This document shows positions 5,778 to 45,041 of a stretch of 64,000 nt of DNA, piece by piece (position 1 is the stretch's first letter; every line of letters begins with the position of its first letter). Origin of the DNA: Thauera sp. GDN1. GTDB lineage: Bacteria; Pseudomonadota; Gammaproteobacteria; Burkholderiales; Rhodocyclaceae. The DNA is taken from assembly GCF_029223545.1 (NCBI RefSeq), contig NZ_CP097870.1:2356001-2420000 (forward strand), in the 5' to 3' direction. A program made the translations under genes and the position numbers. The notes beneath the pieces are model-generated. The model saw only the letters and a program-made list of their open reading frames with translations. It searched no databases and had not been told where the DNA came from.

Positions 5778-5833
5778 GCCGGCAGCGCCCAGCCTGCGCA
5801 AGCCTGACCGACCCGCCACGGGTAGAATGAGGC

Positions 5834-7306
5834 ATGTCCGCAGCATCCGAGGCACCGAGAGGCATGGCCGACGAGAATCAGTTCTTTCGTCCAATCCGCG
5901 ATTTCTACCAGCGTGGCGTCGTCAGCTGCACGGCCGACGACGCCCTGGTCGACATCGTCGCGCAGATGCGCGCGCGCAGCATCTCGTGTGTCGTCGTGCT
6001 CGCCGACGGCAAGCCGTTCGCGATCGTCACCGACCGCGACCTGCGCAACAAGGTCGTCGCCACCGGCAAGGATCCGGCAAGCCTGTGCGTGGCGGACGTC
6101 ATGAGCAGCCCGCTGGTGACGATCGCCGAGGACGACGTCCTCTACGAGGCGCTCTACCGCATGTCGCGCCACAACATCCATCGCCTCGTGGTGGTGGATC
6201 AGGCGGGCGTGCTCGCCGGCATCATCACCGTCACCGACATCCTCCGCCTGCAGGCCCACTCGCCGCATCAGCTCGTGCTGGACATCGAGAAGGCGGACTC
6301 GATCGACGCGCTGCGCGAACTCCACCAGCGCATCCAGAAACTGATCATCCACCTCGCCGGCACCGGGATCGCGATCCGCGAGATGGTGAAGCTGATCGCC
6401 AACCTCAACGACCAGGTGCTGATCCGGCTGATCCATCTGCTGCGGGCGGAGAAGTACCCCGACCTGACCGGGGATTTCGCCTTCGTGGTGATGGGCAGCG
6501 AAGGACGCGGCGAGCAGACCCTGTCCACCGACCAGGACAACGCGATCATCTACGACGACAGCGTGAGCGGCGAGGCCCTCGCCCGCCTGGAGGCGTTCTC
6601 AGGCGACCTGATCGATGCGCTGATATCGATCGGCGTGCCGCCCTGCCCCGGCGGCATCATGGCCAAGAATCCGCAGTGGCGGCGCAGCCTGTCCGAGTGG
6701 CGCCAGGAGCTGACGCGCTGGCTGTCCACGCCGACGCCGGACAACGTGATGACCGGCAGCATGTTCATGGACCTGCGTCCGCTCTACGGCCGCGCCGACC
6801 TGGTGGACACGCTGCGCACCCATGCCTTCCATTACATGGCCAACGAACAGGGCTTCCTGGTGCGCATGGCCCAGAACATGACGCAGTTCGCGCCGCCGCT
6901 GGGCTGGTTCGGACGCATCAAGGTGGACAAATCCGGCCCTCACCGCGGTCAGCTCGATCTCAAGAAGGCCGGCATCTTCGCGATCACCGACGGCATCAAG
7001 GCCCTCGCGATCGAAGCCGGAAGGCTGCACGGCAGCACGCACGACCGCATGGAGGCGCTGGTGGAAGCCGGCGTCATGAAGGCCGAACAGGTCGCCGACC
7101 TGCGCGCCGCCTTCGACTTCCTCGTGCTGATGCGCCTGCAGGGCCAGGTCGCCGCCCTGCGCACCGACACGACGCCGAGCAACTACATCGCGCTCGAACA
7201 CCTCAACGCCATGGAACAGGGCGAACTGCGCCTCGCACTCGAGGGCGTGGCCAAGTTCCAGTCCTTCATCGAGCACCACTTCAAGCTGCAGCTGCTGCGC
7301 AACTGA
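5834..7306 (+). CDS. CBS-domain/DUF294 putative nucleotidyltransferase
   Basis: A 490-residue cytosolic protein. Two CBS domains (about 15-75 and 85-145) are followed by a DUF294 nucleotidyltransferase-like core with GSEGRGEQTLSTDQDN near residue 218, which carries the GS and DxD metal-binding signature. A helical DUF294_C region completes it. CBS pairs usually sense adenine nucleotides, and the enzymatic target of this family is not established. Homologues often sit with acetate symporters and DnaQ-like exonucleases; here those lie 25 kb away. An ATG at 5864 (MADENQFF) is an alternative start. A TAGAAT -10-like box at 5823-5828 would place transcription start close to 5835, which favours 5864 or a leaderless message. 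It ends 13 bp from a convergent gene. Confidence 0.82.
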   Translation: MSAASEAPRGMADENQFFRPIRDFYQRGVVSCTADDALVDIVAQMRARSISCVVVLADGKPFAIVTDRDLRNKVVATGKDPASLCVADVMSSPLVTIAEDDVLYEALYRMSRHNIHRLVVVDQAGVLAGIITVTDILRLQAHSPHQLVLDIEKADSIDALRELHQRIQKLIIHLAGTGIAIREMVKLIANLNDQVLIRLIHLLRAEKYPDLTGDFAFVVMGSEGRGEQTLSTDQDNAIIYDDSVSGEALARLEAFSGDLIDALISIGVPPCPGGIMAKNPQWRRSLSEWRQELTRWLSTPTPDNVMTGSMFMDLRPLYGRADLVDTLRTHAFHYMANEQGFLVRMAQNMTQFAPPLGWFGRIKVDKSGPHRGQLDLKKAGIFAITDGIKALAIEAGRLHGSTHDRMEALVEAGVMKAEQVADLRAAFDFLVLMRLQGQVAALRTDTTPSNYIALEHLNAMEQGELRLALEGVAKFQSFIEHHFKLQLLRN

Positions 7307-12143: not shown

Positions 12144-12470
12144 TCACGCCTCCTCGTCTGCCGATCCGCCGCCCTTCTTCATGACCTTGCCCTCGTCCGC
12201 GCGCTTCTTGCGCACCGCCTTCGGGTCTGCGATCAGCGGACGATAGATCTCGACCCGGTCGCGGTCGCGCAGCTCGGTATCGGCCTTGACCAGCTTGGCA
12301 TAGATGCCGAGCTTGTTGCGGCGGTCGAGCTCGATGTCCGGATACTTCTCGAGCAGGCCCGAGGCCTCGACGGCCTGGCGGACGGTCGCCCCCTCGGCCA
12401 CCCTGACCTCGACCAGCTCCTGACGCTGCGGCAAGGCATAGACGACTTCGACGCGAATCATCGCACTCAT
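12144..12470 (-). CDS. rnfH: RnfH-family ubiquitin-like protein
   Basis: A 108-residue protein of the RnfH (YfjF, RatB) family with a beta-grasp fold. Typical landmarks are [15 protein letters not shown] near the start, [19 protein letters not shown] and [21 protein letters not shown]. The charged tail ([11 protein letters not shown]) is common in the family. Its cellular role is not settled. It starts at ATG 12470, two bases after the ratA stop, so the pair is translationally linked as in E. coli and many other bacteria. Confidence 0.9.
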
Positions 12471-12472
12471 GT

Positions 12473-12922
12473 TCAGGCTCCCCGCCCCGGCGGCTGGTAG
12501 ATCTGTCCGGCGCGTTTCACGAAGGAATCGACGAAGGTGTTGGCGATGTGGTTGAACACCGGCCCCAGCACCTTCTCGAGCAGCTTGCTCGCAAACTGGT
12601 AGCGCAGCTGGAATTCGACCTTGCAGGCGGTATCGCCGAGCGGGGTGAACTGCCAGTGCCCGTCCAGGTGGGTGAACGGCCCGTCGGTCAGGCGCAGGTT
12701 CATCTCGTACGGATGGCGCTTGTCGTTTTCCGTGCTGAACTGCGCCTTGATGCCGTGGTAGTTGATGTGCAGCGTCGCCGCGGTGACGGTGTCGGTGCGC
12801 TTGAGCACGTCGGCGCCGCCGCACCAGGGCAGGAACTGCGGATAGTCCTCGCAGCGGTCGACGAGCTCGAACATCTGCGCGGGGGTGAATTCGATCAGGA
12901 CGAGCTTCTTGACTTCGGCCAT
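12473..12922 (-). CDS. ratA: RatA-family START/polyketide-cyclase-like protein
   Basis: A 149-residue single-domain protein of the SRPBCC fold. RatA/COQ10-type landmarks are [24 protein letters not shown] near the N-terminus and [16 protein letters not shown] near the C-terminus. In E. coli RatA was described as a toxin blocking 70S ribosome assembly; relatives of COQ10 bind ubiquinone, so either activity may apply. It is immediately upstream of rnfH and divergent from smpB, a conserved arrangement. Confidence 0.9.
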
Positions 12923-24498: not shown

Positions 24499-27400
24499 AT
24501 GCGCGTACCGAGTTCACCGTGGATCACGATCACCCTTGCCTACTGGCTGGCGGGCCAGTTCGCACTCGGGCTCGCCATCCCGCCGGGCTATACCGCGCCC
24601 TTCTTTCCCTCCGCCGGCATCGCACTGTCGGCCCTGATCATCTGCGGCCTGCGTTACTGGCCGGCGGTGCTCGCCGGCTCCGCGCTCGTGCAACTGGCCG
24701 CCACCTGGCCGCTGATCGGCACGCCGGGCTGGAACCCGCTCGGGCCGATGGTCGTGCCGCTTGGCGCCACCCTGCAGGCGGTCGCCGGCGCCGTGCTGGC
24801 GCGAAGACTGATCGGCTTTCCGAGCACCCTCGACACCCCGGCGGCGGTGGTGCGACTGCTCGCGATCGTGGTCCCGGCGAGCGCGCTGGTGAGCTGCACG
24901 ATCGCGGTATCGGCGCTGATGTGGGCAGGGGTGATTCCCCCCGCCGTCGCACTGTTCAACTGGTGGTCGTGGTGGGCCGGTGACACCCTCGGCGCGCTGG
25001 TGGCCGTACCGCTGATGTTCGTGTTCTTCGGCCGCCCGGCGAACGAATGGCGCCCACGCCGCCTCGCCGTCGCGCTGCCGCTGGCGGTGGCCCTCGTGCT
25101 GCTGAGCCTGGCCTACCGCCAGGTCGAGCAGTGGGAGGAGACGCGGATGCGGGGGCAGTTCGAGCGCGACGCCACCCATCTCGCCCACCTGCTGCAGATG
25201 CGGCTGGACCGTCACATCGAGATGATGCGCTCGATCGAGCGCCTGTTCGCGGTCAGCGAGAACGTCACCGCGACCGATTTCTCGGCCTTCGTCACGCCCT
25301 GGATGGAACGCAACGCAGGCACCCAGAGCTTCACCTGGAATCCGCTGGTCCGCGACGCCGACCGCGATGCCTTCGAGGGCGCCGCGCGCGCGGGCGGACT
25401 CGCAGGCTTCGCCATCCTCGACCGCGACACCGCGGGCCGGACCGCGCCGGCCATGCGCCGCACCGAGTACTTGCCGATCCTGTACATCGCACCGGCGGGC
25501 ATCAACGACAGCGCGCTCGGCCTCGATCCGCTTTCGTTCGCCATCTCCGCCGAGGCGATCGCACGCGCACGCGCAAACGGACAGCCCGTCGCCTCCGCCC
25601 GCATGCGCCTGATCCAGGAAACCGGTAAGCAGCACGGCGTGGCGGTGTACCTCCCCGTCTTCCGCCCCGTTGCCGCGACCGGCTCCGCGGCCGGCACCGA
25701 ACCCTTGCTCGGCGTCGTCACCGCCGCCTTCCGCCTCGGCGATGTCGTCGCCGCCGCCCTCGAGGGCTCGCGGTCGGCGAACATCGAACGCTGCCTCGTC
25801 GACCTCGATGCCGCCGATCCCGGGACCTGCCTCGCCGGCGAGCACGACAGCGCGCATCCGGGCTGGGACGAGGACACGCTCGCGCATGCGGCGCCGATCT
25901 CCTTCGCCGGCCGGGATTGGGAATTGCGTCTGCGCGCCACGCCGGAATACATGCGCCAGCTGCAGAGCTGGGCGGCATGGGCCACCGTCGCCGTCGGCCT
26001 GCTCGCCACCGCGATGCTCGGGGCGCTGCTGCTGATCACCACCGGCGCCAACCGCCGCATCAACGCCCTGGTGGAGCAACGCACCGCCGAGCTCGAAGCC
26101 GCGACCGCCGATCTCAACGAGAAGCAGGCGGCGCTGATCGAGGCCCAGCGCATCGCCCGCATGGGCAGTTGGGAAACGGTGGCAGGCGCCTCGGGCCTGC
26201 ATGCCTCGGCCGAACTGCATCTGCTGCTGGGCGTCGATGGCAGCCAGCTGCGCAGCCTGACCGACCTGGTCGACACCGTGTCGCCGAGCTGCCGCCCCGC
26301 GCTGGCCAACGCCTTCGCCGGCGCCGCCCAGGGCCCCGGCCGCATCATGCTCGACTGCAGGACCGACACCCTGCCCGTGCGCACGCTCCAGTTCCGCATC
26401 GAGAGCGAATGGGAGGGCGCGGTGCTGACCCGGATCCGCGGCACCGCGCAGGACGTCAGCAGCGCCCGCGACGCCGAGGCGAAGATCCGCTATCTCGCGC
26501 GCTACGACACGCTGACCGGGCTGTACAACCGCAGCGCCTGGCAGGAGCAGGCCCGCATCGCCCTGTCCTCGGCCACCCGCCACCAGGACAAGTTGGCCAT
26601 CCTCTTCCTCGACCTCGACAACTTCAAGACCGTGAACGACTCCCTCGGCCACGCCGCCGGCGACCGCCTGCTCGCGACGGTGGCGAGCCGGCTGGCGCGC
26701 TGCTTGCGGGACGAGGACCTGCTCTCCCGTCTCGGCGGCGACGAGTTCGTGGCGCTGCTGTCGCGCCTGTCGAATGTCGAGGAGGCGGCGCGCGTCGCCG
26801 ACCGCATCATGAGCGCGCTGAACGAACCGATGGACATCGAGGGCCACGAACTCCATCTGTCGGCCAGCATCGGCATCGCGCTCTACCCGAACGACGGCGC
26901 CGAAGTCGAGACCCTGCTCAAGCATGCCGACACCGCGATGTATTCCGCCAAGGAGGCCGGGCGCAACACCTTCCGCTTCTTCGTCCCGGAGATGAATGCA
27001 CGCGCCACCGAGCGCCTGGTGATGGAAACGGAGCTGCGGCGCGCAATCGAGCGCGACGAACTGCTGCTGCACTACCAGCCGCAGATCGAGGCCGCCAGCG
27101 GCAAGCCCTACGGCTGCGAGGCGCTCGTGCGCTGGAACCACCCGCAGCGCGGCCTGCTCGCGCCCGACCAGTTCGTCGGCCTCGCCGAGGAGACGGGGCT
27201 GATCGTCCCGCTGGGCGAATGGGTGCTGCGCGAAGCCTGCCGCCAGCAGGTGCGGTGGACGGCCGCGGGACTCCCCGAACTGGTGATGGCGATCAACATC
27301 TCGGCGCTGCAGTTCCGCAAGCGCGACTTCGTGCCGATGCTGGCGCGGATACTCGCCGAAACCGGCGCGGATCCACGACGCATCGAGCTGGAGATCACCG

Positions 27401-27786
27401 AAAGCGCGCTGATGACGAGCTCCGACGACCTCTCCGCGCGCCTGCAGGAGCTGGTCGACCTCGGCCTGACGCTCGCCCTCGACGACTTCGGCACCGGCTT
27501 CTCGGGCCTGTCCTACCTGAAACGCCTGCCGATCGCCCGTTTGAAGATCGACCGTTCCTTCGTCGATGAGCTGCCCGGCAATGCCGAGGACGCGGCGATC
27601 ACCGCGGCGGCGCTGTCGCTCGGGCGCGACCTGGGCATGGCGGTGGTCGCCGAAGGGGTGGAGACTGCCGAACAGCGCAGCTATCTCGCCGCTCGCGGCT
27701 GCCAGGCGATGCAGGGTTACCTGTTCTCGCGGCCACTGAGGGCGGAGGCGTTCGCCGACTGGCTCCAGACCGCGGTGGCGCTGTAA
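24499..27786 (+). CDS. MASE1-CHASE-PAS-GGDEF-EAL c-di-GMP enzyme
   Basis: A 1095-residue membrane protein that can both make and break cyclic di-GMP. A MASE1-like block of about seven or eight helices (1-205) is followed by a periplasmic CHASE-type domain (about 215-485), another helix (about 492-515), a coiled coil and a PAS-like segment (about 545-655). The GGDEF domain has the intact signature RLGGDEFVALL and an RDED inhibitory site five residues before it. The EAL domain keeps CEALVRW, NISALQF, LEITESAL, LDDFGTGFSGL, KIDRSFV and AEGVETAEQ, so both halves look active. ATG 24499 is the only early Met, and the message may be leaderless. Confidence 0.93.
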   Translation: MRVPSSPWITITLAYWLAGQFALGLAIPPGYTAPFFPSAGIALSALIICGLRYWPAVLAGSALVQLAATWPLIGTPGWNPLGPMVVPLGATLQAVAGAVLARRLIGFPSTLDTPAAVVRLLAIVVPASALVSCTIAVSALMWAGVIPPAVALFNWWSWWAGDTLGALVAVPLMFVFFGRPANEWRPRRLAVALPLAVALVLLSLAYRQVEQWEETRMRGQFERDATHLAHLLQMRLDRHIEMMRSIERLFAVSENVTATDFSAFVTPWMERNAGTQSFTWNPLVRDADRDAFEGAARAGGLAGFAILDRDTAGRTAPAMRRTEYLPILYIAPAGINDSALGLDPLSFAISAEAIARARANGQPVASARMRLIQETGKQHGVAVYLPVFRPVAATGSAAGTEPLLGVVTAAFRLGDVVAAALEGSRSANIERCLVDLDAADPGTCLAGEHDSAHPGWDEDTLAHAAPISFAGRDWELRLRATPEYMRQLQSWAAWATVAVGLLATAMLGALLLITTGANRRINALVEQRTAELEAATADLNEKQAALIEAQRIARMGSWETVAGASGLHASAELHLLLGVDGSQLRSLTDLVDTVSPSCRPALANAFAGAAQGPGRIMLDCRTDTLPVRTLQFRIESEWEGAVLTRIRGTAQDVSSARDAEAKIRYLARYDTLTGLYNRSAWQEQARIALSSATRHQDKLAILFLDLDNFKTVNDSLGHAAGDRLLATVASRLARCLRDEDLLSRLGGDEFVALLSRLSNVEEAARVADRIMSALNEPMDIEGHELHLSASIGIALYPNDGAEVETLLKHADTAMYSAKEAGRNTFRFFVPEMNARATERLVMETELRRAIERDELLLHYQPQIEAASGKPYGCEALVRWNHPQRGLLAPDQFVGLAEETGLIVPLGEWVLREACRQQVRWTAAGLPELVMAINISALQFRKRDFVPMLARILAETGADPRRIELEITESALMTSSDDLSARLQELVDLGLTLALDDFGTGFSGLSYLKRLPIARLKIDRSFVDELPGNAEDAAITAAALSLGRDLGMAVVAEGVETAEQRSYLAARGCQAMQGYLFSRPLRAEAFADWLQTAVAL

Positions 27787-30506: not shown

Positions 30507-32552
30507 TCAGAGATCGGGGCGCGCCTGGCCCGGCAGATCCGGATAGCGTACGTAATCGACCAGATCCTGGATCTCCCGCGGCGGCGGTTTAGTCACCAGG
30601 CTGACCACGACGATGGTGAGAAAGCCGAGCGGCACGCCGAACACGCCGGCCGAGATCGGATTGATGTCGAACCAGGCGTTCGCCATCGAACCGCCGAAGA
30701 ACGGATGAGTGTGCACCACGTAGAAGATGGTGACCGCGAGCCCGGCGATCATGCCGGTGACCGCACCGGGGCGGTTGGCGCGCTTCCAGAAGATGCCCAG
30801 CACCAGCGCCGGGAAGAAGGCCGAGCCGCCGATCGAAAACGCCAGGCCGACCATGAACAGGATGTTGTCCGGCCGCATCGAGGCCACCCACGCCGCCACC
30901 ACCGCCACCACCAGCAGCTGCGACTTCGAGATCACCAGCCTGCGGTGGGTCGTGGCCTGGGGATTGATCACCTTGTAGTACAGGTCGTGGGAGAGCGCGT
31001 TCGAGATCGTCAGCAGCAGGCCGTCGGCGGTCGACAGCGCTGCCGCCAGACCGCCGGCCGCGACCAGGCCCGAGACCACGTAGGGCAGCCCGGCGATCTC
31101 CGGGGTGGCGAGCACGATCACGTCGGTGTTCAGGCTGAGCTCGGCGAGCTGGAGGATGCCGTCGCCGTTCAGATCCTCGATGCGGACGAGCCCCACCCTG
31201 CCCCAGGAGGCCACCCAGTCGGGCAGGATGCCCAGGCTCGAGCCGACCACGTTGTGATAGACCTCCCACTTGGCGAACACCGCATAGGCCGGCGCGGTCA
31301 CGTAGAGCAGGAAGATGAAGAACAGCGACCACATGACCGAGCGCCGCGCCTCCATGACCCCCGGCGTCGTGTAGTAGCGCATCAGGATGTGAGGCAGCGC
31401 CGCGGTGCCGACCATCAGCACGAACATCAGCGCGAGGAAGTTGTTGCGCGCCACCGCCGACTGCTGATCGGTCGCCCCCGGATGGGCCTCGGCGTGCCGT
31501 GGAGGCGGCTTCGAACGCTCCAGGGCCTCGAGCCGTGCGCGTTCCCAGATCTGCTGCGCCTCGGCCGGGGTGCGCGGCAGGTCGCGCAGCGCGCGCTCGG
31601 TCAGCGCGATGTCGCGCGCCGGGGCGCTGTCCAGGCGCATCCGGTTGAGCGCCTCGATCATCCTCCGGCGCTCCGCTTCCAGCGAGTCGGGCAGCGCCGC
31701 GATCTTGGCGGCGAAATCCTGCGCCCGCGCGGCGTAGAGGCCGCGCACCTCGATCTCGGTGGGCGCCTCGAGCAGCACGTCCTCGCGGGCGGTGATTTCC
31801 TGCAGCACCTTGCCGTACACCGCCTGCGGAATCGGGATCCCGGTGAGCTTGTAGGAGAGGATCACCACCGGCACCAGGTAGGCGATGATCAGGATCACGT
31901 ACTGCGCGACCTGGGTCCAGGTGACCGCGCGCATGCCGCCGAGGAAGGAGCACACCAGGATGCCGGCCAGGCCGATGAACAACCCGATCTCGAACTCGAC
32001 GCTGACGAAGCGGCTGGTCACCAGGCCGACGCCGTAGATCTGTGCCACCAGATAGACGAAGCTCGCCAGCACCGCGGCGGCAAGGCCGACCAGGCGCGCG
32101 ACGTTGCCCTGGTAGCGCGCGCCGAGGAAGTCGGGAATCGTGTACTGGCCGAACTTGCGCAGGTAGGGTGCGAGCAGCAGCGCCACCAGCACGAAGCCCC
32201 CGGTCCACCCGGTCACGAAGGCCAGTCCCTCGAAACCGCTGAAGTACAGCGTGCCGGCGAGGCCGATGAAGGACGCGGCGCTCATCCAGTCGGCGGCGGT
32301 AGCCATGCCGTTGAACAGCGCCGGCACCCGCCGGCCCGCGACGTAGTACTCCGACACGTCGGAGGTGCGGCTCATGACCCCGATCGTGGCGTAGATCGCG
32401 ATGGTCACGAACAGGAAGGTGTGGCCGATCAGCTGCTGCGACAGGCCCATCGACTCGCCGACCGCGAGCAGTACCACGAACAGCGCGAAGGTCAGCGTAT
32501 AGACGCCGTAGTAACGCCGCAGCTGGCGCGCGAAGCCGACGTTGCGTTTCAA
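30507..32552 (-). CDS. Sodium:solute symporter (acetate/monocarboxylate type)
   Basis: A 681-residue membrane transporter of the SSS family, about 13 helices (YTLTFALFVVLLAVGESMGL at the start, MSAASFIGLAGTLYFSGFEGLA as the substrate/sodium core). It carries a long charged loop (about residues 255-355 of the frame) before NNFLALMFVLMVGTAALPHILMRYYT, typical of the VC_2705-like subfamily that often accompanies acs. TTG 32552 is preferred because it lies after the upstream stop with a GGGCGGGG stretch before it; an in-frame ATG at 32639 would overlap the upstream gene by 50 bp. Its place behind the sensor genes suggests uptake of acetate or a similar acid. Confidence 0.85.
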   Translation of the reverse strand: MKRNVGFARQLRRYYGVYTLTFALFVVLLAVGESMGLSQQLIGHTFLFVTIAIYATIGVMSRTSDVSEYYVAGRRVPALFNGMATAADWMSAASFIGLAGTLYFSGFEGLAFVTGWTGGFVLVALLLAPYLRKFGQYTIPDFLGARYQGNVARLVGLAAAVLASFVYLVAQIYGVGLVTSRFVSVEFEIGLFIGLAGILVCSFLGGMRAVTWTQVAQYVILIIAYLVPVVILSYKLTGIPIPQAVYGKVLQEITAREDVLLEAPTEIEVRGLYAARAQDFAAKIAALPDSLEAERRRMIEALNRMRLDSAPARDIALTERALRDLPRTPAEAQQIWERARLEALERSKPPPRHAEAHPGATDQQSAVARNNFLALMFVLMVGTAALPHILMRYYTTPGVMEARRSVMWSLFFIFLLYVTAPAYAVFAKWEVYHNVVGSSLGILPDWVASWGRVGLVRIEDLNGDGILQLAELSLNTDVIVLATPEIAGLPYVVSGLVAAGGLAAALSTADGLLLTISNALSHDLYYKVINPQATTHRRLVISKSQLLVVAVVAAWVASMRPDNILFMVGLAFSIGGSAFFPALVLGIFWKRANRPGAVTGMIAGLAVTIFYVVHTHPFFGGSMANAWFDINPISAGVFGVPLGFLTIVVVSLVTKPPPREIQDLVDYVRYPDLPGQARPDL

Positions 32553-32589
32553 GGGCGGCCCCGCCCGGCGTCGCTGCGTGGATGCGTCA

Positions 32590-34815
32590 TCAGTACTTGA
32601 TCCGCGCGTAGTAGGACTTCTCGGCCGCCTCGCGCGCATCGCGCAGCGTGCGGATGCCCTTCTCGGCCAGCAGCGGCACCAGCTTCAGGAACACCTCGGC
32701 GGTCACGATGGCATCACCGAGCGCGGTGTGGCGACCGACGATGGTCAGCCCCAGGCGCTCGGCGATCGCCTCCAGGCGGTGCGACTCCTGGTTGGGGTGG
32801 ATGACCGCCGACAGCAGCAGGGTGTCGATCACCGGCTGGTCGAAGCGCAGCCCGGTCTCCTCCTCCTTGAGCTGCAGGAAGCGCATGTCGAAGGCGGCGT
32901 TGTGCGCGATCAGCACGGTGTCGGCGGCGAAGGCGTGGAAGGCCGGCAGCACCTTGTCGATCGTGGGCTGGCCGCGCAGCATCTCGCAGCTGATGCCGTG
33001 GATCTTCGCCGACTCCGGCGCCAGCGGACGCTGCGGATCGACCAGCTGCTCGAAGGATTCGCTGCGCAGCAGCTTGCCGTTGAGGATGCGGGTGGCGCCG
33101 ATCTGGATGATCTCGTCGCCCTGCGAGGGGTTGAGCCCGGTGGTCTCGGTGTCGAACACGGTGTAGGTGAGCTCGGACAGCAGCCTGTCCTCCAGCCCGT
33201 GCGACTTCTCGGACCAGGCGAAGAGGTCGAAGTCGTAGTATTCCGGGCGGCTCTCGCCGCGCAGGTAGGTGTCGGGCTCGGCCTGCTCCTGGGGCGTGGC
33301 CGCCGGCAGCAGGATGCGGAAGAAGGCGCGGTGGCGGACCTTCTCGCGCTCCAGCCACATCTCGCCATCGTGGCGGTCGATGACGTCGCGCACGGTGAGC
33401 GGGCTGCTCTCGTCCTCGATCTTCATCGCCTCGAGTTCCCAGCTCATCACCGTCTCGGTGCTCATCGCCTGTCCGGACCAGATCAGGTCGAGGTGCACCA
33501 GGCGCCCGGCCGCGGTGAGGCGGAAGCGCACCTCGCGCACCTCGAACTCGTCCGACAGCCGGCTCGCCAGATAGGTGATGGCCTGCATCAGCGAGAAGCT
33601 GTCCACCTTCACCCACAGCGACTCGTCGACCTCCTCGAGCTTGGTCGGCAGGCCGATGCGCGCCTCGATGCGGCGCTGCACCGCGGCGATGAGGTCGGCG
33701 CCGAGCATCTCCTCCAGCGGCCAGCGCGCCTTCAGCGAATCGGCGAACTCGTTGGCGGTCTGGTTCAGGCGCTGGCTCATCGCCTGAACCTCGTCGCGCA
33801 CCACCTTGCGGAAGCGCGTGCGCATGTCGTCGGTGAGGTCCTCGAACTCGAGCATGTCGGCCGCCGCGCGCACGTTGGCGAGCGAGGCGCGGTTGCCCTC
33901 GGTGAGGTTGTGCAGCATCTGGTCGCGGCGCGATTCGGTCTCGAAGTTGCGCGTGATGTTGTCCAGCATCAGGATGAAGCCGGTCACCGTGCGCTCGGGC
34001 GGCGCCGCCGGCACCGCCTCGGCGGCACCGGCCGTGTCCTCGCCCCCGGCGCCTCCTTCGTCCTTCGCCGCGACCATCAGCACCGGCGCCATCTGCACGC
34101 GCAGCAGCTGTCCGGCGCGGGTCGTGGTGACGAAGTTGGCCTGGGGCTGCGCCACCCCGCGGCGCAGGCGCTGCTGGATGGTGTCGAGCGCGTGGGCGAT
34201 CAGGTTGCGCTCGAAGACGCCGTAGATCGAACGGCCGAGGCCGATCAGCTCGCCCCCGCCCGCCACCCCGGGCGCCTCCGACAGCGCGCGGAACTGCATG
34301 CGCGCACGGTTGTTGTAGAGCAGCACGCGACCGTCGAGATTGCACACGACCACGCTCTGCGTCAGCTCCGACATCAGCGTGGCGAGGCGATTCTTCTCGA
34401 GTTCGACCGATTCCTTGGCACGCGCGATCTGCGCCTCGACGTCGCACATGAGCTCGTCGCGCTGGCAGGCGAGCTGGTTCGCAGCCGTCGCAAGCGCCTG
34501 CACCTCGGGCGGCCCTTCAAGCTGGACGCGGAAGCCGCGGTTGGCGCCCAGCATCAGGCGCAGGTGTTCGGACATGCGCAGCAGGCCCTGCACGTACTGC
34601 CGGAACAGCGTGCGCACCACGCCGACCCCGGCCACGAAGCCGAGCGCGGTGAGCATCGTGCCCAGTCCGAGATGCGGCGCCAGCACGCTCACCAGCAGCG
34701 CCCTGCCCTCGCCCTCGGTCTCGACCCACACGATCAGCGCCGTCAGCAGGAAGGGGCCGGTCATCAAGAGGAACAGCACGATGACCGCGAGAATGAAGCG
34801 CGCGCGTGCCGACAT
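32590..34815 (-). CDS. Membrane sensor with degenerate kinase core fused to DEDDh exonuclease
   Basis: A 741-residue fusion. Two N-terminal helices (about 7-29 and 48-70) and a HAMP-like segment lead to a PAS-like domain (about 135-300). Next is a region built like a histidine kinase (about 300-500) that lacks the H-box histidine (RASLANVRAAADML) and a recognisable N-box, so it probably does not phosphorylate. The C-terminal ~190 residues are a DnaQ-type 3'-5' exonuclease with all motifs: FDTETTGLN (Exo I), AHNAAFDMRFL (Exo II) and RHTALGDAIVTAEVF (Exo III, His and Asp). It follows the receiver gene by 3 bp. Function is not established; nuclease activity controlled from the membrane is an inference. 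Confidence 0.82.
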   Translation of the reverse strand: MSARARFILAVIVLFLLMTGPFLLTALIVWVETEGEGRALLVSVLAPHLGLGTMLTALGFVAGVGVVRTLFRQYVQGLLRMSEHLRLMLGANRGFRVQLEGPPEVQALATAANQLACQRDELMCDVEAQIARAKESVELEKNRLATLMSELTQSVVVCNLDGRVLLYNNRARMQFRALSEAPGVAGGGELIGLGRSIYGVFERNLIAHALDTIQQRLRRGVAQPQANFVTTTRAGQLLRVQMAPVLMVAAKDEGGAGGEDTAGAAEAVPAAPPERTVTGFILMLDNITRNFETESRRDQMLHNLTEGNRASLANVRAAADMLEFEDLTDDMRTRFRKVVRDEVQAMSQRLNQTANEFADSLKARWPLEEMLGADLIAAVQRRIEARIGLPTKLEEVDESLWVKVDSFSLMQAITYLASRLSDEFEVREVRFRLTAAGRLVHLDLIWSGQAMSTETVMSWELEAMKIEDESSPLTVRDVIDRHDGEMWLEREKVRHRAFFRILLPAATPQEQAEPDTYLRGESRPEYYDFDLFAWSEKSHGLEDRLLSELTYTVFDTETTGLNPSQGDEIIQIGATRILNGKLLRSESFEQLVDPQRPLAPESAKIHGISCEMLRGQPTIDKVLPAFHAFAADTVLIAHNAAFDMRFLQLKEEETGLRFDQPVIDTLLLSAVIHPNQESHRLEAIAERLGLTIVGRHTALGDAIVTAEVFLKLVPLLAEKGIRTLRDAREAAEKSYYARIKY

Positions 34816-34818
34816 GGC

Positions 34819-35187
34819 TCACTGCTCCAGCAGGCTGCGGACCTTGTCCACCAGCTCGCGGGTGGAGAAAGGCTTGGTCATGTAGGCATCGGCGCCGAGC
34901 GCCAGCCCCTTGGCCACTTCGGTGTCGCGCCCCTTGGCGGTCAGCATCAGGATCCGCACCGCGGCGAGCGCCGGGTCGGCCTTGACCTCCTGGCAGACCT
35001 CGAAGCCGCTCTTCTTCGGCATCATCACGTCGAGCAGCACCAGGTCTGGCTGGTCGGCACGGATGCGCTGGATCGCCTCGTCGCCGTCATTGGCGAGCAG
35101 CACCTCGTAGCCCTCGCGCTTCATGAGGAACTCCAGCGAGATGACGATGTTCTGCTCATCGTCCGCGATCAACACTTTCTTGTTCAT
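34819..35187 (-). CDS. Single-domain response regulator (receiver only)
   Basis: A 122-residue CheY-like receiver domain without an output domain. The acidic pair is in VLIADDEQN, the phospho-acceptor Asp in LVLLDVMMPKKSGFE (Asp about 54), the Thr in LMLTAKGRD and the Lys in YMTKPFSTRE. ATG 35187 has GGGGAGGAG upstream. It lies 30 bp after the SSS-STAC kinase gene and 3 bp before the sensor-exonuclease fusion. It probably receives phosphate from that kinase and passes the signal by protein contact, possibly to the fusion protein. Confidence 0.93.
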   Translation of the reverse strand: MNKKVLIADDEQNIVISLEFLMKREGYEVLLANDGDEAIQRIRADQPDLVLLDVMMPKKSGFEVCQEVKADPALAAVRILMLTAKGRDTEVAKGLALGADAYMTKPFSTRELVDKVRSLLEQ

Positions 35188-35217: not shown

Positions 35218-37959
35218 TCATTGCACGGCAGCCGCCGACGCCAGGGGCAATTCGAAGGAAAAGGTCGCGCCCTGGCCCGGCACCGACTCCAGCCACAGGC
35301 GGCCACCGAAGTGTTCGACGATCTGGCGGCTGATCGGCAGCCCCAGGCCGGTACCCTGCGGGCGCGAGCGCTCGTCGCCGCCCTGGCGGAATTTCTGGAA
35401 CACCACCGGCTGCTGCTCGGGCGGGATGCCCGGTCCGTTGTCCCTCACGTCCACCCGCACGCGCGCATCGTCGCAGCTCAAGGTGACCTCCACCCGCCCC
35501 GCCCCGATGGGGACGAACTTGGCTGCGTTCGACAGCAGGTTGAGCATGACCTGCAGCAGGCGGTCGTGGTCCGCGCGCAGCATCGGCACCGACACCGGCA
35601 TGTGCACGGCGACCTCGGCGCCGCGATCGCGGAACAGCTGCATGGTCGCGTCCACCGAGTGCTGGACGAGCTCGCGCATGTCGATGTCGGTGTTGTGCCA
35701 TTCGGCATGGCCGGACTCGATCTTCGCCATGTCCAGCACCTGGTTCACCAGCCGGGTCAGGCGCACGGTCTCGGAGACGATGATGCCGAGGAAGCGCTGG
35801 CGGTCCTCGACGTCGATGTCGGGGTCCTCGGCCATCATCTCGGAGAAGGCCCGGATCGAGGTCAGCGGGGTGCGCAGCTCGTGGGTCACCGAGGACATGA
35901 AGTCGTCCTTGAGGCGATCGAGCTCCTTGAGCTGCTCGTTGGCCGCGCGCAGCTCGGCGGTCGCAGCCTCGAGCGCGCGCGACTTCTCCTCGAGCTTGTG
36001 CGAGTAGGCGCGCACCTGCGAGGCCTCGTCGAGGATGTCCATCACCTCGCCCAGGCCCAGCGGTTCCTCCTGCACCACGGTCGACACCATGACGCGCGCC
36101 GACGCGCTGCCGATCGCGCCGGCGAGCAGGGATTCGGCGAAATGCACCAGTTCGGGATCGGACTTGAGTTCGGAGACGTCCCGCAGGCCGTGCGTGCGCG
36201 CGTAGGCGCCGAAGGCGTCCTCGGTGCGGCGCTGGCCGAGGAAGCGCGCGACCACCGGCACCAGGTCGCGCACCTCGGCGCCGCTGCGCCAGAAGCTCGC
36301 CGGGGGCGACTCGCCGCGGCGGAATACATCGACGAAGAGCGCGCCCTGGGTGGCCTCCGCCCCGGTCGGCACGCGCGCCAGCGACACCAGCACGTAGGCG
36401 CCGATATTGGCGAGCAGGCTCCAGAACAGCGCATGGGTGATGTTGTCCCAGCCGGCGAGACCGAAGAGCTGCTCGGGCTTCAACCACGCCAGGCCGAACA
36501 GCCCCTGTTCCAGGAAGCCGGGATCGAGCCAGCCCGATTTGGCGAACGAGGGCAGCATCAGGGTGTAGCCCCACACCACGAAGCCCGACAGCAGCCCGGC
36601 GAGCGCACCCTCGCGCGTGCCGCCGCGCCAGTACATGCCGCCGATCACCACCGGCGCGAACTGCGCCACCGCGGCGAAGCTGATGAGGCCGATGCTGACC
36701 AGCGCATAGGCCTCGCCCGCCAGGCGGAAATACAGATAGCCGAGCAGCAGCAGGCCGACGATGGCGCCGCGACGGATGCCGAGCAGCAAACCGGTGAGGT
36801 CGCGCTCGCCGGCCAGGTTCAGGCGCCGGCTGTGCAGCAGCATCGGCATCACCAGGTCGTTGCACACCATCGTCGACAGCGCGATCGCCTCGACGATGAC
36901 CATGCCGGTCGCCGCCGACAGGCCGCCGATGAACACGAACAGCGCCAGCGCGGCGTTGTCGTGCGCCATCGGCAGCGTCAGCACGAAGGTGTCCGGATCG
37001 ACCGTGCCGCGGCCGAAGTGCAGCAGGCCGCCGATCGCGATCGGGATCACGAAGATGTTGATCAGCAGCAGGTAGGCCGGAAACGCCCAGGTGGCGCGGC
37101 GCAGGTGCTGCTCGTTGACGTTCTCGACCACCGCGATCTGGAACTGGCGCGGCAGGAAGATGATCGACAGCATCGCCAGCAGCACATGGGCGAACCAGCC
37201 GCCATAGCCGAGGCGGCCGACGCCGTCGAAGGCGAGCACGTTGGCGAGCTCGGGTGCCGCCAGCGCGCGTGCGTAGAGGTCGCCGAAACCGTCGTACAGC
37301 CAGTAGGTGACGTACACGCCGACGGCGAGGAAGGCGGCGAGCTTGACCACCGACTCGAAGGCGATCGCCGCCACCATGCCTTCGTGGCGTTCGGTGGTGT
37401 CGAGGTGGCGGGTGCCGAACAGCACGGTGAACGCGGCCAGCGTGAGCGCGATGTAGAGCGTGCCGTCCTGCCACCAGCCGGCCCGGCTCTCGATCCGGAA
37501 CAGGCTGTCGTGCTCGCCGATCAGCAGCGCGTAGCCGCTTGAGATGGCCTTCAGCTGCAGCGCGATGTAGGGCACGATGCCGACCACCGCGATCACGGTG
37601 ACCAGGCCGCCGAGCAGATGGCTCTTGCCGTAGCGCGAGGCCACGAAGTCGGCGATCGAGGTGATGCGGTGGCTGCGCGCGATGCGGATCATCTTCAGCA
37701 CCACCAGCCAGGCCAGCGCCAGGCCGAGGGTGGGGCCGAGATAGGTGGGCAGGAACCAGGTGCCGCCCGATGCGGCGCGGCCGACGCTGCCGAAATAGGT
37801 CCACGCGGTGCAATACACCGCCAGCGACAGGCTGAACACCCAGGGGTTGGCGATGATCGAGCGCCCCTCGTCGGCGCGGCGGTCGCCGAAGTAGGCCACC
37901 GCGAACAGCAGCAGCAGATAGGCGAAGGACGCCCCGATGATCAGCCAGCCCGGCAGCAT
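35218..37959 (-). CDS. SSS-transporter-linked sensor histidine kinase (CrbS/CbrA type)
   Basis: A 913-residue membrane kinase. The N-terminal ~500 residues are a full SSS symporter fold of about 13 helices. A STAC-like linker domain (about 510-600, with ARFLGQRRTEDAFGAYA) and a coiled coil (about 630-670) follow. The kinase core has the H-box VTHELRTPLTSIRAFSEMM, N-box MLNLLSNAAKF, G1 VRDNGPGIPPEQQ and G2 GTGLGLPISRQIVEHFGG; all are intact. In Vibrio and Pseudomonas CrbS-type kinases sense acetate or carbon status and switch on acs. GGAGG precedes ATG 37959. No receiver is attached; the partner is likely the receiver encoded next. Confidence 0.9.
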   Translation of the reverse strand: MLPGWLIIGASFAYLLLLFAVAYFGDRRADEGRSIIANPWVFSLSLAVYCTAWTYFGSVGRAASGGTWFLPTYLGPTLGLALAWLVVLKMIRIARSHRITSIADFVASRYGKSHLLGGLVTVIAVVGIVPYIALQLKAISSGYALLIGEHDSLFRIESRAGWWQDGTLYIALTLAAFTVLFGTRHLDTTERHEGMVAAIAFESVVKLAAFLAVGVYVTYWLYDGFGDLYARALAAPELANVLAFDGVGRLGYGGWFAHVLLAMLSIIFLPRQFQIAVVENVNEQHLRRATWAFPAYLLLINIFVIPIAIGGLLHFGRGTVDPDTFVLTLPMAHDNAALALFVFIGGLSAATGMVIVEAIALSTMVCNDLVMPMLLHSRRLNLAGERDLTGLLLGIRRGAIVGLLLLGYLYFRLAGEAYALVSIGLISFAAVAQFAPVVIGGMYWRGGTREGALAGLLSGFVVWGYTLMLPSFAKSGWLDPGFLEQGLFGLAWLKPEQLFGLAGWDNITHALFWSLLANIGAYVLVSLARVPTGAEATQGALFVDVFRRGESPPASFWRSGAEVRDLVPVVARFLGQRRTEDAFGAYARTHGLRDVSELKSDPELVHFAESLLAGAIGSASARVMVSTVVQEEPLGLGEVMDILDEASQVRAYSHKLEEKSRALEAATAELRAANEQLKELDRLKDDFMSSVTHELRTPLTSIRAFSEMMAEDPDIDVEDRQRFLGIIVSETVRLTRLVNQVLDMAKIESGHAEWHNTDIDMRELVQHSVDATMQLFRDRGAEVAVHMPVSVPMLRADHDRLLQVMLNLLSNAAKFVPIGAGRVEVTLSCDDARVRVDVRDNGPGIPPEQQPVVFQKFRQGGDERSRPQGTGLGLPISRQIVEHFGGRLWLESVPGQGATFSFELPLASAAAVQ

Positions 37960-38371: not shown

Positions 38372-40333
<1,962 letters not shown>

Positions 40334-40429
40334 GCTCACCTCTCCTCAACTGTTCAAATGGTTGAAGCTGACCCTTGCGGGTGGGCTGGTTGAACCCAGC
40401 CTATAAACCGCCAAGCCTGCAACGGGGCC

Positions 40430-42161: not shown

Positions 42162-45041
42162 TCAAGCCGGCGCCAGCGTCCATGACGCGGGCGGCGACCA
42201 GCTCGCCGCCCACTCGGCAATCCGCTCGGCCGGCATCGGCCGGGCGATGCCGTACCCCTGTCCCACGTCGCAGCCGAGCCGCAGCAGCCGCTCGCCGTGC
42301 TCGACCGACTCCACGCCCTCGGCGATCACCTCGCAACGGAAGGCATTGGCCAGCCCGAGGATCGCCTTCAGGATCGCCATGTCCTCGGCGTCCTGCAGCA
42401 TGCCGCGCACGAACACCTGGTCGATCTTGAGCCGCGCCGCGGGCAGGCGCTTCAGGTAGGCGAGCGAGGAATACCCCGTCCCGAAGTCGTCGAGCGCGAA
42501 CGACACCCCGATCGCAGCACAGGCCTCCACCACGCGCGAGGTCTGGGTGATGCTCTCCAGCGCGCTCGTCTCCAGCACCTCCAGCTCCAGGCTGCCCGGC
42601 CACACCTCCGGATGGCGTGCCAGCGCCGACTGCAGCCGCATCATGAAGTCCGGCACCTGCAGATGGCGGGCGCTGATGTTGACGCTGACCGGCAGTTCCA
42701 GCCCGGCCCGTTTCCACGCCGTGATCTGCGCCAGCGCCTGCTCCACCACCCAGTCGCCGAGCTCGACCGCCAGCGGATGCCCCTCCACCGTCGGCAGGAA
42801 GCGCGCCGGCTCGACCTCGCCGTGCTCGGGATGCGCCCAGCGGATCAGGGCCTCGACCCCGATCACCCTGCCGGTGCGCATGTTCACCTTGGGCTGGTAG
42901 ACCATGCGGAACTCGCCCGCGCTCAGGCCCTCTCGGATGCGCGCGAGGTCCTCGTGGCGGCCGCGCAGGCAGCGGTCGTGGGCGCTGTCGAAGACGTGAT
43001 AGCGGTTCTTGCCCGCGAGCTTGGCCTGGTACATGGCGAGGTCGGCCTGGCGCAGCAGCTGATCCGCGTCGACGTCGTCCGGCTGCGGGAACAGGGTCAG
43101 GCCGATGCTCGCCGACACCTTCACCTCGTGCCCCGCCAGCGGCACCGGCAGCGCCAGCGCGGCGAGCAGGCGCTGGGTGAGCAGCAGGCAGGACTCGGTA
43201 TCGGGCAGGTCGATCAGCACCGCGACGAATTCGTCCCCGCCCAGCCGCGACACCGTGTCGCCCTCGCGCAGCGTGGTCTTCATGCGCGCGGCGAGCGTCT
43301 TCAGCAGCTGATCGCCGACCTGGTGGCCGTGGGTGTCATTGACCGCCTTGAAGCCGTCGAGATCGATATAGGCCAGCGCGAGCTGCTGCCCGCGCCGCAC
43401 CACCTGGGCCATGCCGCGCTGCAGGCGGTCGTTGAGCAGCACGCGGTTGGGCAGGCCGGTGAGCGGATCGTAGTGGGCGATGAACTCGAGCCGCGCCTCG
43501 TGCTCCTTCTGGTTGGTGATGTCGTTCAGCGTGCCCGACACGCCCACTACGCAGCCCGCGTCATCGACCACCGGCCGCGCGTTCATCTCCAGCCAGCGGA
43601 AACCGCCACCGGTGCACCGGTAACGCACCGCCTCCGCGCGCGCGTCGCGCGCACCGCTCAGCACCTCCTCCATTAGCTCGAGATGAAGCTCGCGGTCCTC
43701 GGTGTGCACATAGTCGATGAAGTGCGTCCCCAGCGAGCGCTCGAGCGGATAGCCGGTGAGATCGGCCCACGCCCGGTTCAGGAACACCCAGCGGCCCGCC
43801 ACATCGACCTGGAAGATCACCTCCTTGACGCTCTCGACCACCGAGCGGTAGCGCGCCTCGCTCGCGCGCACGCTGTCGTAGGCGTGCTTGCGCTCGAGCA
43901 CGCCGGTGAAGGCGTTGCCCACCAGCTGCATCAGCGTCTTTTCCTCGTCGAGCCAGATGCGCGGCTTGCGCACCGAGTCGAGCCCGATGAAGCCCAGCAG
44001 GTGCCCGTTCGCCACCATCGGCACCGCGAGCAGGGACTGGATGGACTGCGCCTCGAGCAGCGCGCGGTCGATCGCGGCCTCCTCCGGTAGTGACTGCACG
44101 CTCGGATAATCGACGATGCCGAAACGCTTGATAGTGCGGGAGAACAGCATGCCGTCGTCGAAGGGCTCGTTCTGCAGCCGGTCGAGCTGGGGCTCGATCC
44201 CCTCGGCGCACCATTCGTAGGCATTGCTGACGAAGAGCCCGTCGGCACTCACCAGGAAGACGTAGGCGCGATCCGCCTCGGCGAAGCTCCCGATCTCCTG
44301 CAGCGCGCGGGAGAGATGGAGGTCCAGTTCCTGCGGACGGGCCAGGATCAGCTCGGACGAGATGCGCGCGACCAGGCGCTCGAAGCCGATCCTGCGGTTC
44401 AGCATGGCCTCGACGCGCTTGCGTTCCTGCTCGACCCTCAGCGCGACGATCATGCTCGCGCAGGTCGCGGTCATCGGCTCGAGCTCGGTCAGCAGCGCTT
44501 CGTCGTAGCCGCCCACCGCGTTGGCGAGTCCGACCATGCCGATCAGCTCCCCGCCATGGAACAGCGGCAGCCCGAGGAATGCCTTCAGCGCCGGATGGCC
44601 GCAGGGCACGCCGCCGCGGCGCGGGTCCGTGTCCGGACAGTTCGCGATCACCGGCGCCTGGGTGCGCACCACCGCCCCGAACAGCGAGTCCAGATTGTGG
44701 AACTCGAAGCCGCCGCTACGCATGCGCTCGAACACCGTGCGCGACTCCTCGCTCCACGAGATGTCGCTCAGGCCGTGCATGCGCAGGAAGGACTCGCCCG
44801 CGTCGTCCTGCAACACCTCGCTGATGAAGCCGTACTCGCTGCCGGTCAGGGCGATGAGCTGGTCGAGCATCTGGCCGAAGGTCTCGCTCGACGGATTGCC
44901 CACCAGAAATCCGCGCTGCAGTGCGGTGAGCACCGACAGCATCTGCGTCTGCCGCCGCAGCCGGTACTCGACGCTGTTGTCAGCGGGCGCGGGCGCAGCA
45001 GCGCCCGGCTCCTCCGGTGAAGCGGATGGAAAGCTCGACAT
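42162..45041 (-). CDS. GAF-GAF-PAS-GGDEF-EAL c-di-GMP enzyme
   Basis: A 959-residue cytosolic protein. Two GAF domains (about 40-200 and 220-385; the first has NCPDTDPRRGGVPCGHPALKAF-like, Cys-containing lobes) are followed by a PAS domain with its PAC tail (about 398-520). The GGDEF domain has RLGGDEFVAVL and an REGD inhibitory site. The EAL domain (about 700-950) keeps VEALIRWAHP, VNISARHL, LEVLETSAL, LDDFGTGYSSL, KIDQVFV and AEGVES. Both catalytic halves look intact, so the net direction must be set by the sensor domains. It is a stand-alone gene below the ppsA terminator. Confidence 0.93.
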   Translation of the reverse strand: MSSFPSASPEEPGAAAPAPADNSVEYRLRRQTQMLSVLTALQRGFLVGNPSSETFGQMLDQLIALTGSEYGFISEVLQDDAGESFLRMHGLSDISWSEESRTVFERMRSGGFEFHNLDSLFGAVVRTQAPVIANCPDTDPRRGGVPCGHPALKAFLGLPLFHGGELIGMVGLANAVGGYDEALLTELEPMTATCASMIVALRVEQERKRVEAMLNRRIGFERLVARISSELILARPQELDLHLSRALQEIGSFAEADRAYVFLVSADGLFVSNAYEWCAEGIEPQLDRLQNEPFDDGMLFSRTIKRFGIVDYPSVQSLPEEAAIDRALLEAQSIQSLLAVPMVANGHLLGFIGLDSVRKPRIWLDEEKTLMQLVGNAFTGVLERKHAYDSVRASEARYRSVVESVKEVIFQVDVAGRWVFLNRAWADLTGYPLERSLGTHFIDYVHTEDRELHLELMEEVLSGARDARAEAVRYRCTGGGFRWLEMNARPVVDDAGCVVGVSGTLNDITNQKEHEARLEFIAHYDPLTGLPNRVLLNDRLQRGMAQVVRRGQQLALAYIDLDGFKAVNDTHGHQVGDQLLKTLAARMKTTLREGDTVSRLGGDEFVAVLIDLPDTESCLLLTQRLLAALALPVPLAGHEVKVSASIGLTLFPQPDDVDADQLLRQADLAMYQAKLAGKNRYHVFDSAHDRCLRGRHEDLARIREGLSAGEFRMVYQPKVNMRTGRVIGVEALIRWAHPEHGEVEPARFLPTVEGHPLAVELGDWVVEQALAQITAWKRAGLELPVSVNISARHLQVPDFMMRLQSALARHPEVWPGSLELEVLETSALESITQTSRVVEACAAIGVSFALDDFGTGYSSLAYLKRLPAARLKIDQVFVRGMLQDAEDMAILKAILGLANAFRCEVIAEGVESVEHGERLLRLGCDVGQGYGIARPMPAERIAEWAASWSPPASWTLAPA

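Follow-up and report, generated by a model that had tools for sequence, protein, structure and literature searches.

A membrane-bound pseudo-histidine kinase fused to a predicted DEDDh exonuclease, encoded beside a stand-alone receiver in Thauera sp. GDN1

Within a 64,000-nucleotide stretch of Thauera sp. GDN1 (contig NZ_CP097870.1, positions 2,356,001 to 2,420,000; hereafter the window), we identified a gene whose product joins a membrane anchor, a PAS-like domain and a histidine kinase core without kinase motifs to an intact-looking exonuclease domain of the DEDDh type (Table 1). The genes on the minus strand run in the order acs, SSS-type kinase, receiver, fusion, VC_2705-type symporter and then clpB, where the true start of the symporter may sit downstream of the listed ATG. 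In Pfam, the receiver carries Response_reg only and no output domain, and its conserved residues are kept across relatives, with Asp53 present in 136 of 137, and Lys105 and Thr/Ser83 each in 137/137. The N-terminal half of the kinase is SSS-like by profile (hhalign 95.73%, E 8.8e-9), and the kinase of one related locus (L115; loci are numbered L, families f and genomes G) gave an SSF match at E 5.2e-6.

Table 1. Features of the fusion gene and its neighbours, in window coordinates
Feature	Position	Strand	Basis
Membrane pseudo-histidine-kinase / DEDDh exonuclease fusion, whole gene	32590..34815	-	translation, 741 aa
Transmembrane (TM) helix 1, residues 11-29	34729..34785	-	hydropathy; AlphaFold2 (AF2) helix 3-32
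TM helix 2, residues 49-67	34615..34671	-	hydropathy; AF2 helix 36-89
PAS-like domain, about residues 154-286	33958..34356	-	PAS_4 in relatives; AF2 strands
Pseudo-DHp helix pair, residues 288-361; Glu306 in place of acceptor His, Arg309 (+3) kept	33733..33954	-	hhalign, site counts, AF2, Foldseek
Degenerate CA (catalytic/ATP-binding) domain, residues 366-505	33301..33720	-	hhalign alignment, site counts, AF2
Conserved linker RPEYYDFDLF, residues 523-532	33220..33249	-	invariant and near-invariant alignment columns
Predicted DEDDh exonuclease domain, residues 550-715; D555 E557 D643 H696 D701	32671..33168	-	Pfam, alignments, PDB matches
Stand-alone receiver, 122 aa, Asp53 Thr83 Lys105; 3 bp upstream of fusion	34819..35187	-	Pfam Response_reg E 5.2e-28
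Histidine kinase, 913 aa, SSS-like N-terminal half, intact HisKA and HATPase_c	35218..37959	-	Pfam; hhalign
Sodium/solute symporter, VC_2705 family	30507..32639	-	TIGR03648 780.7 bits vs cut-off 320.75
Acetyl-CoA synthetase (acs), upstream of kinase	38372..40339	-	TIGR02188 968.5 bits vs cut-off 724.95; Pfam

The architecture of the fusion was followed in two alignments, one of 45 rows (44 relatives, each 690 aa or longer and below 85% identity, plus the window fusion) and one of 25 members, window included. An earlier reading, made from the sequence alone, had given the protein two TM helices with HAMP- and PAS-like segments. Hydropathy agrees on the helices, and at least two are present in 42 of the 45 rows. 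Because the loop that joins them counts only about 20 residues (median 22, range 15-26 across the alignment), the fusion leaves a periplasmic sensor domain no space, and we ruled out this candidate. The PAS-like segment is likewise borne out by PAS_4 matches in 20 of the 25 members, the window fusion among them (E <= 0.05; best 7.8e-10), and by a PAS-like sheet in the AF2 model, even if the window fusion's own match is weak (E 0.0048, under Pfam's cut-off). The HAMP-like segment stays unproven, with a match in just one of the 25 members (E 0.0022). The full-length AF2 model, built on 45 aligned homologues, reached a mean predicted local distance difference test score (pLDDT) of 77.8 and a predicted template modelling score (pTM) of 0.36, so that the placement of the domains relative to each other is unsure. 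Two N-terminal helices come first, followed by a long helix, the PAS-like sheet, the DHp helices (288-322 and 329-361), a CA domain of the alpha/beta type (368-505) and finally an RNase H-like domain (551-718). Foldseek related the middle of this model to WalK, VicK, ThkA, HK853 and DivL, and its end to PolC, DinG and DnaQ. NifL and phytochrome A, histidine-kinase-like proteins that work without kinase activity, are further fold matches (9qq6, 8isk and others), albeit with other outputs. Full-length homologues of the fusion occur in 41 of 397 genomes of the phylum, its own included (37 as a single match, four as two pieces), and a match at E <= 1e-40, in some cases not full length, was found in 27 of 370 genomes of the class, again including its own. 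Since homologues recur in this way, the architecture is not a product of chance.

A kinase-shaped region devoid of H-box histidine and N-box had been proposed for the middle of the protein, and this description holds. HATPase_c matched none of the 25 members and HisKA only two (best E 0.011), yet the region aligns with the cores of operon-type histidine kinases with a probability of 98.08% (hhalign, E 1.1e-13, 207 columns), where six profile pairs expected not to match all remained below 0.4%. An AF2 model of the isolated core (residues 286-510) reached a pLDDT of 84.3 and a pTM of 0.67; its 61 rows represent 61 of 66 possible segments, with L015, L123, L133, L135 and L136 left out. In Foldseek, this model found HK853-RR468 complexes (best E 8.6e-11) and DivL (4q20, E 5.3e-9). 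The fusion core shares descent and the DHp plus CA fold with HisKA/HATPase kinases.

The motifs of a working kinase are nevertheless gone. In the operon kinases, the acceptor His, the N-box, the G1 Asp and the G2 Gly are intact in 69/69 sequences (kept from 76 rows, being 75 hits and the window kinase, after filtering on length and uniqueness). By contrast, none of the 181 long fusions has the acceptor His, the site being Glu in 123 and Asp in 39, and in 180 of them the G1 Asp is replaced by Trp (Trp446 in the window). According to the hhalign alignment, the N-box Asn of the window core has become Arg419 and the G2 glycines are missing. What is retained is the Arg at position +3 from the acceptor, in 179 of the 181 (Arg309 in the window). 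Glu or Asp in the acceptor's place might mimic a phosphorylated His. Closer modelling, which the sequence-only reading had set as a way to refute its claim that kinase function is lost, gives a kinase-like fold, but one without H, N, G1 and G2, and we retain the claim. Could the core still be a kinase, or a receiver phosphatase, that binds ATP or dephosphorylates the phosphorylated receiver in an unusual manner? Its HisKA/HATPase fold in Foldseek is consistent with such an activity, but the acceptor and G1 counts and the lack of any HATPase_c match argue against it. So does the fate of the E at +1 and the T at +4 from the acceptor, which have a role in phosphatase activity: both are found in 69/69 operon kinases and are no longer the prevailing residues in the 25-row fusion alignment. 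We rejected residual kinase activity on the loss of the kinase motifs, and regard this explanation as a whole as extremely improbable.

The nuclease part presents the opposite picture. RNase_T matches residues 553-709 (Pfam E 7.7e-37) and is found in 25/25 members of the smaller alignment. The complete set of DnaQ-type motifs claimed for it is confirmed, D555, E557, D643, H696 and D701 being invariant in 45/45 and 25/25 rows, and the full set of five being kept by 231 of 234 homologues (the others being L125-L127). It is an intact-looking domain, a predicted DEDDh exonuclease in an RNase H-like fold, with the PolC exonuclease of Thermotoga maritima (2p1j, E 1.9e-35) as its best sequence match in the PDB. 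Among the 25 of 33 NCBIfam matches listed, no equivalog cut-off was reached, only the domain model TIGR00573. A role as a defence system was considered and set aside: in PADLOC, a DEDDh model and two PDC-S48 models match the nuclease domain and three models match the receiver domain, while no PADLOC model matches the operon kinase or the DUF294 protein discussed below. PolC, DinG and DnaQ share this domain and its catalytic residues with the fusion, but belong to polymerase or helicase proteins. With PolC and DnaQ-type exonucleases as the nearest solved structures, one could think of an ordinary housekeeping DNA exonuclease, active in proofreading or repair, that simply happens to be located in the membrane. 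This is highly improbable in our estimation: the fusion sits in acs/symporter/kinase operons across classes, and its own genome holds five further matches to the fusion query, of which the three listed fall in the nuclease domain. As a separate observation, the three homologues without the full catalytic set form family f74 (L125 4729-7190, L126 144-2734, L127 4770-7243), in which a degenerate receiver and a dead kinase core accompany a nuclease domain that has lost all five catalytic residues. At L125, the sole f74 locus scanned, lexA, imuA-like and imuB-like (IMS) genes lie upstream and a DnaE-type polymerase lies downstream, past an M16 peptidase, so that a dead DnaQ-like protein has mutasome-type genes as its neighbours.

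A link between receiver and dead core is suggested by comparing loci. Among the 232 homologous loci with at least 900 bp upstream (L032 and L126, of 234, had less), a receiver gene adjoins the fusion in 162 of 179 with an intact DHp, in 0 of 11 in which the DHp is deleted and the CA kept, and in 0 of 42 in which the core is absent. The window's own copy (L001) is left out of the adjacency, fusion-residue, DUF294 and order counts, and included in the count of SSS-type kinases and among the representatives below 70% identity. While some genomes contribute near-identical loci to the 232, and the entries L112 and L114 stand for a single gene, counts on representatives avoid both: below 80% identity, an adjacent receiver accompanies 87 of 96 DHp-intact versus 0 of 50 DHp-less loci, and below 70%, in a smaller, earlier locus set, 51 of 59 versus 0 of 12. 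When 32 loci, L123, L128 and L166-L185 among them, were searched at a lax threshold (E up to 10), no receiver turned up at the DHp-less ones either. Because relatives are not independent, we additionally counted contrasts on trees of the nuclease domain, in which gain and loss are indistinguishable. The careful tree of 144 rows holds five supported independent contrasts, of which on average 4.9 agree and 0 oppose (median p 0.0625, the best value attainable with five). Quick trees of 71 and 144 rows each hold three, with 1.9 (p 0.5) and 2.9 (p 0.25) in agreement, and none of the three trees contains a contrast opposing the association. Both 144-row trees use 144 of the 146 representatives, with L125 and L127 left out.

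There are 17 DHp-intact loci without an adjacent receiver. Seven are from Accumulibacter, where an SSS-type kinase with an adjoining receiver is found elsewhere in 7/7 genomes. L125 and L127 have a degenerate receiver next door, while the genomes of L107-L109 carry a second fusion, with a receiver at that second copy in two of the three (L115, L117). The single gene listed as L112 and L114 has a kinase and a receiver match nearby on the other strand. This leaves L132, L141 and L204, for which the absence is unexplained; no kinase of the operon type was found at E <= 1e-80 in the genome of L141, and only a weaker one in that of L132.

The DHp-less forms are natural variants in their own right. 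In family f225, some proteins consist of TM helices, PAS, linker and nuclease without the core, while others keep the CA domain and have lost much of the DHp pair. Short forms with TM helices, PAS, linker and nuclease, and no kinase core, were seen at L128 (5687-7192) and L166-L176, where they measure 465-585 aa, and also at further f225 loci. In the four loci viewed, L166 and L170 (short) and L177 and L181 (DHp-deleted), a membrane-like open reading frame (ORF) of 172-177 aa lies directly upstream; the one at L177 has no NCBIfam match. As the 42 short-form loci have neither core nor adjacent receiver, the receiver and pseudokinase seem to form an optional layer of control over a nuclease anchored at the membrane.

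A precedent for a dead kinase core that reads a receiver is known from Caulobacter. DivL reads phosphorylated DivK, and the substitutions R553A, T557N, Y562A and H579E weaken this binding; full binding depends on R553, which lies at +3 from Tyr550, and the kinase core has, in the authors' proposal, been repurposed as a receiver sensor (PMC4211667). The two systems share a dead histidine kinase with PAS, a lone receiver, an Arg at acceptor +3 and a similar core fold (4q20). They differ in that DivL has Tyr at the acceptor site and acts on the CckA pathway, whereas the fusion mostly has Glu or Asp there and its core is joined to a nuclease; docking is proposed here by analogy. With moderate confidence, we favor a reading in which the phosphorylated receiver docks on the dead DHp, as phosphorylated DivK does on DivL, and controls the membrane-tethered predicted nuclease in acetate metabolism. 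The SSS-type kinase would sense acetate, a related small acid or the uptake of such a compound, and would phosphorylate the lone receiver. Because the latter has no output domain, it would not bind DNA, and would instead dock on the dead helix pair of the membrane fusion. Docking could then shift the dead DHp/CA core, with the RPEYYDFDLF linker passing the change on to the activity or access of the exonuclease, so that control would run from receiver to nuclease. The PAS domain may supply a second, cytoplasmic input, and the nuclease would trim an RNA or a nucleotide mark tied to acetate metabolism. Of the proposal that a membrane signal directly controls a 3'-5' exonuclease, one part stands, namely a dead core fused to an intact-looking DEDDh nuclease beside an SSS-type kinase and a receiver, in a conserved arrangement. 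As to the input, the receiver is indicated more than a transmembrane signal, because the inter-helix loop is so short and because the receiver tracks the DHp (162/179 versus 0/53).

Several observations weigh against this reading. The tree-aware test falls short of p < 0.05 (0.0625, and 0.25 and 0.5 on the quick trees), and 51 of the 53 DHp-less loci belong to the single family f225, the other two being L123 (f120) and L128 (f164). Family f225 also matches four genomes outside the locus set (G937, G866, G823 and G851), and is probably alphaproteobacterial, because its tree neighbours include copies from Paracoccus yeei and Marivivens. Besides Accumulibacter, ten DHp-intact loci are without a normal adjacent receiver. 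Covariation between receiver and fusion puts just five of the top 100 pairs in the DHp (62 of 260 columns), although this is a weak test because the DHp varies little. The window kinase itself has no SSF match at E 0.01, its SSS likeness being by profile only. Finally, acs was found in just 36 of 81 long loci, and therefore acetate may not be the general signal. In part, these observations would suit a passive scaffold, in which the dead core only dimerises and spaces the PAS domain from the nuclease, a PAS ligand is the input, and the receiver acts elsewhere as a phosphate sink or on another partner. Covariation does not point to the DHp, PAS matches are common among relatives (20/25), and the N-terminal half with its PAS region is also present in the coreless, receiverless short forms (L166-L176). 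A scaffold does, however, leave unexplained why none of the 53 DHp-less loci has an adjacent receiver against 162 of 179 others, and why Arg309 and Trp446 are near-invariant, and we consider it unlikely.

How general is the operon? The fusion co-occurs with an SSS-type kinase in 74 of 88 long loci. In 70 of 80 named loci, which by their titles come almost entirely from Rhodocyclales and Burkholderiales, a single strand carries kinase, receiver and fusion in that order. The ten exceptions are seven loci from Accumulibacter, two truncated at a contig end (L032, L064) and one (L095) that drops out because of the start codon chosen. In several other genomes of the class the kinase is placed after the fusion (L115-L117, L119, L120 and L124). 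Further variants occur in Paracoccus denitrificans PD1222 (nucleotidyltransferase-substrate-domain protein, small protein, then kinase, receiver and fusion as PDEN_RS25405, RS25410 and RS25415), Marivivens (acs, DUF4212, symporter, DUF294, small protein, receiver, fusion) and Paracoccus yeei (acs, DUF485, acetate symporter, DUF294, receiver, fusion), and in the Paracoccus and Marivivens genomes the fusion is annotated as exonuclease domain-containing protein or 3'-5' exonuclease. Among the 81 long loci, at least 36 have acs and at least 49 an SSS symporter; these counts, and those of DUF294 below, are lower bounds because the loci differ in length. Aside from this, two GGDEF-EAL proteins flank the acetate cluster of the window (24499-27786 on the plus strand and 42162-45041 on the minus strand), one with MASE1-CHASE and one with GAF-PAS.

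The acetate system CrbS/CrbR (MxtR/ErdR) of Vibrio and Pseudomonas likewise has an SSS-type kinase and a tie to acs and an acetate symporter (PMC9927547, PMC8402216, PMC5715377). According to these sources its response regulator binds promoters, in contrast to the short Response_reg-only receiver of Thauera. In Pseudomonas putida, ErdR binds the promoter of the CBS-domain gene PP_0354, which forms an operon with PP_0353, a putative RNase_T exonuclease (PMC9927547, PMC8402216). When PP_0353 is lost, growth on pyruvate is delayed; the study describes the role of the protein as unclear, with mRNA decay as a speculation (PMC9927547). On this basis, RNA is the simplest guess for what the fusion nuclease acts on. 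The published description of PP_0353 mentions no kinase part, whereas the Thauera nuclease is fused to a pseudokinase. We do not equate PP_0353 with the fusion.

A different substrate is suggested by DUF294 genes, which lie within 4.5 kb in 42/42 short and 11/11 DHp-deleted loci, and in 62 of the 102 long loci whose DNA extends far enough. Because of this proximity, and because DUF294_C is grouped with GlnD/GlnE-type domains (PMC3710099), the nuclease may be an eraser of nucleotides added by the adjoining GlnD/GlnE-like nucleotidyltransferases. This idea concerns the substrate and is compatible with receiver control, but the window's own operon is without a DUF294 gene, the three matches in its genome lying elsewhere (one at about window 6326-6742), and no enzyme in such a role came to light, none having been sought; we hold the idea to be quite improbable. 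Very improbable is the combined version, a two-component pathway with nucleolysis as its dedicated output, in which the receiver switches the nuclease through the dead kinase and the nuclease erases nucleotides that neighbouring DUF294 transferases write on some protein or RNA involved in acetate metabolism. Stand-alone relatives of the nuclease were noted as well. A separate exonuclease-like gene is present in 10 of the 81 long loci, among them L042, where a 223-aa protein (12214-12882) lies between DUF294 and symporter genes; it has no Pfam match at 0.001, and its D-x-E motif reads DVA by eye, so it is perhaps a dead nuclease. L129 carries a 203-aa stand-alone exonuclease (5448-6056) close to the fusion nuclease domain (E 2e-61), with acs, DUF294 and kinase matches within about 6 kb on the opposite strand.

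Every part of this system is of a known kind. The known outputs of receivers are mostly DNA binding, cyclic-di-GMP enzymes and protein contacts, and the combination predicted here, a dead kinase that apparently passes the state of a receiver on to a nuclease, has no description in the literature searched, which largely excludes subscription journals. The comparative pattern yields direct predictions on the DHp, on Arg309 and on Asp53 of the receiver. The system also gives a starting point for asking how the acetate/pyruvate regulon of P. putida came to include a putative exonuclease (PMC9927547). If receiver control of the nuclease holds, two-component systems would gain a fast, non-transcriptional output acting on nucleic acids or nucleotides, and the idea derived from DivL would extend past the Caulobacter cell cycle. 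Should DUF294 take part, this would amount to a new writer-eraser circuit under two-component control. For Thauera and its relatives, the system would provide an unusual bacterial route from a food signal such as acetate to the cutting of nucleic acids.

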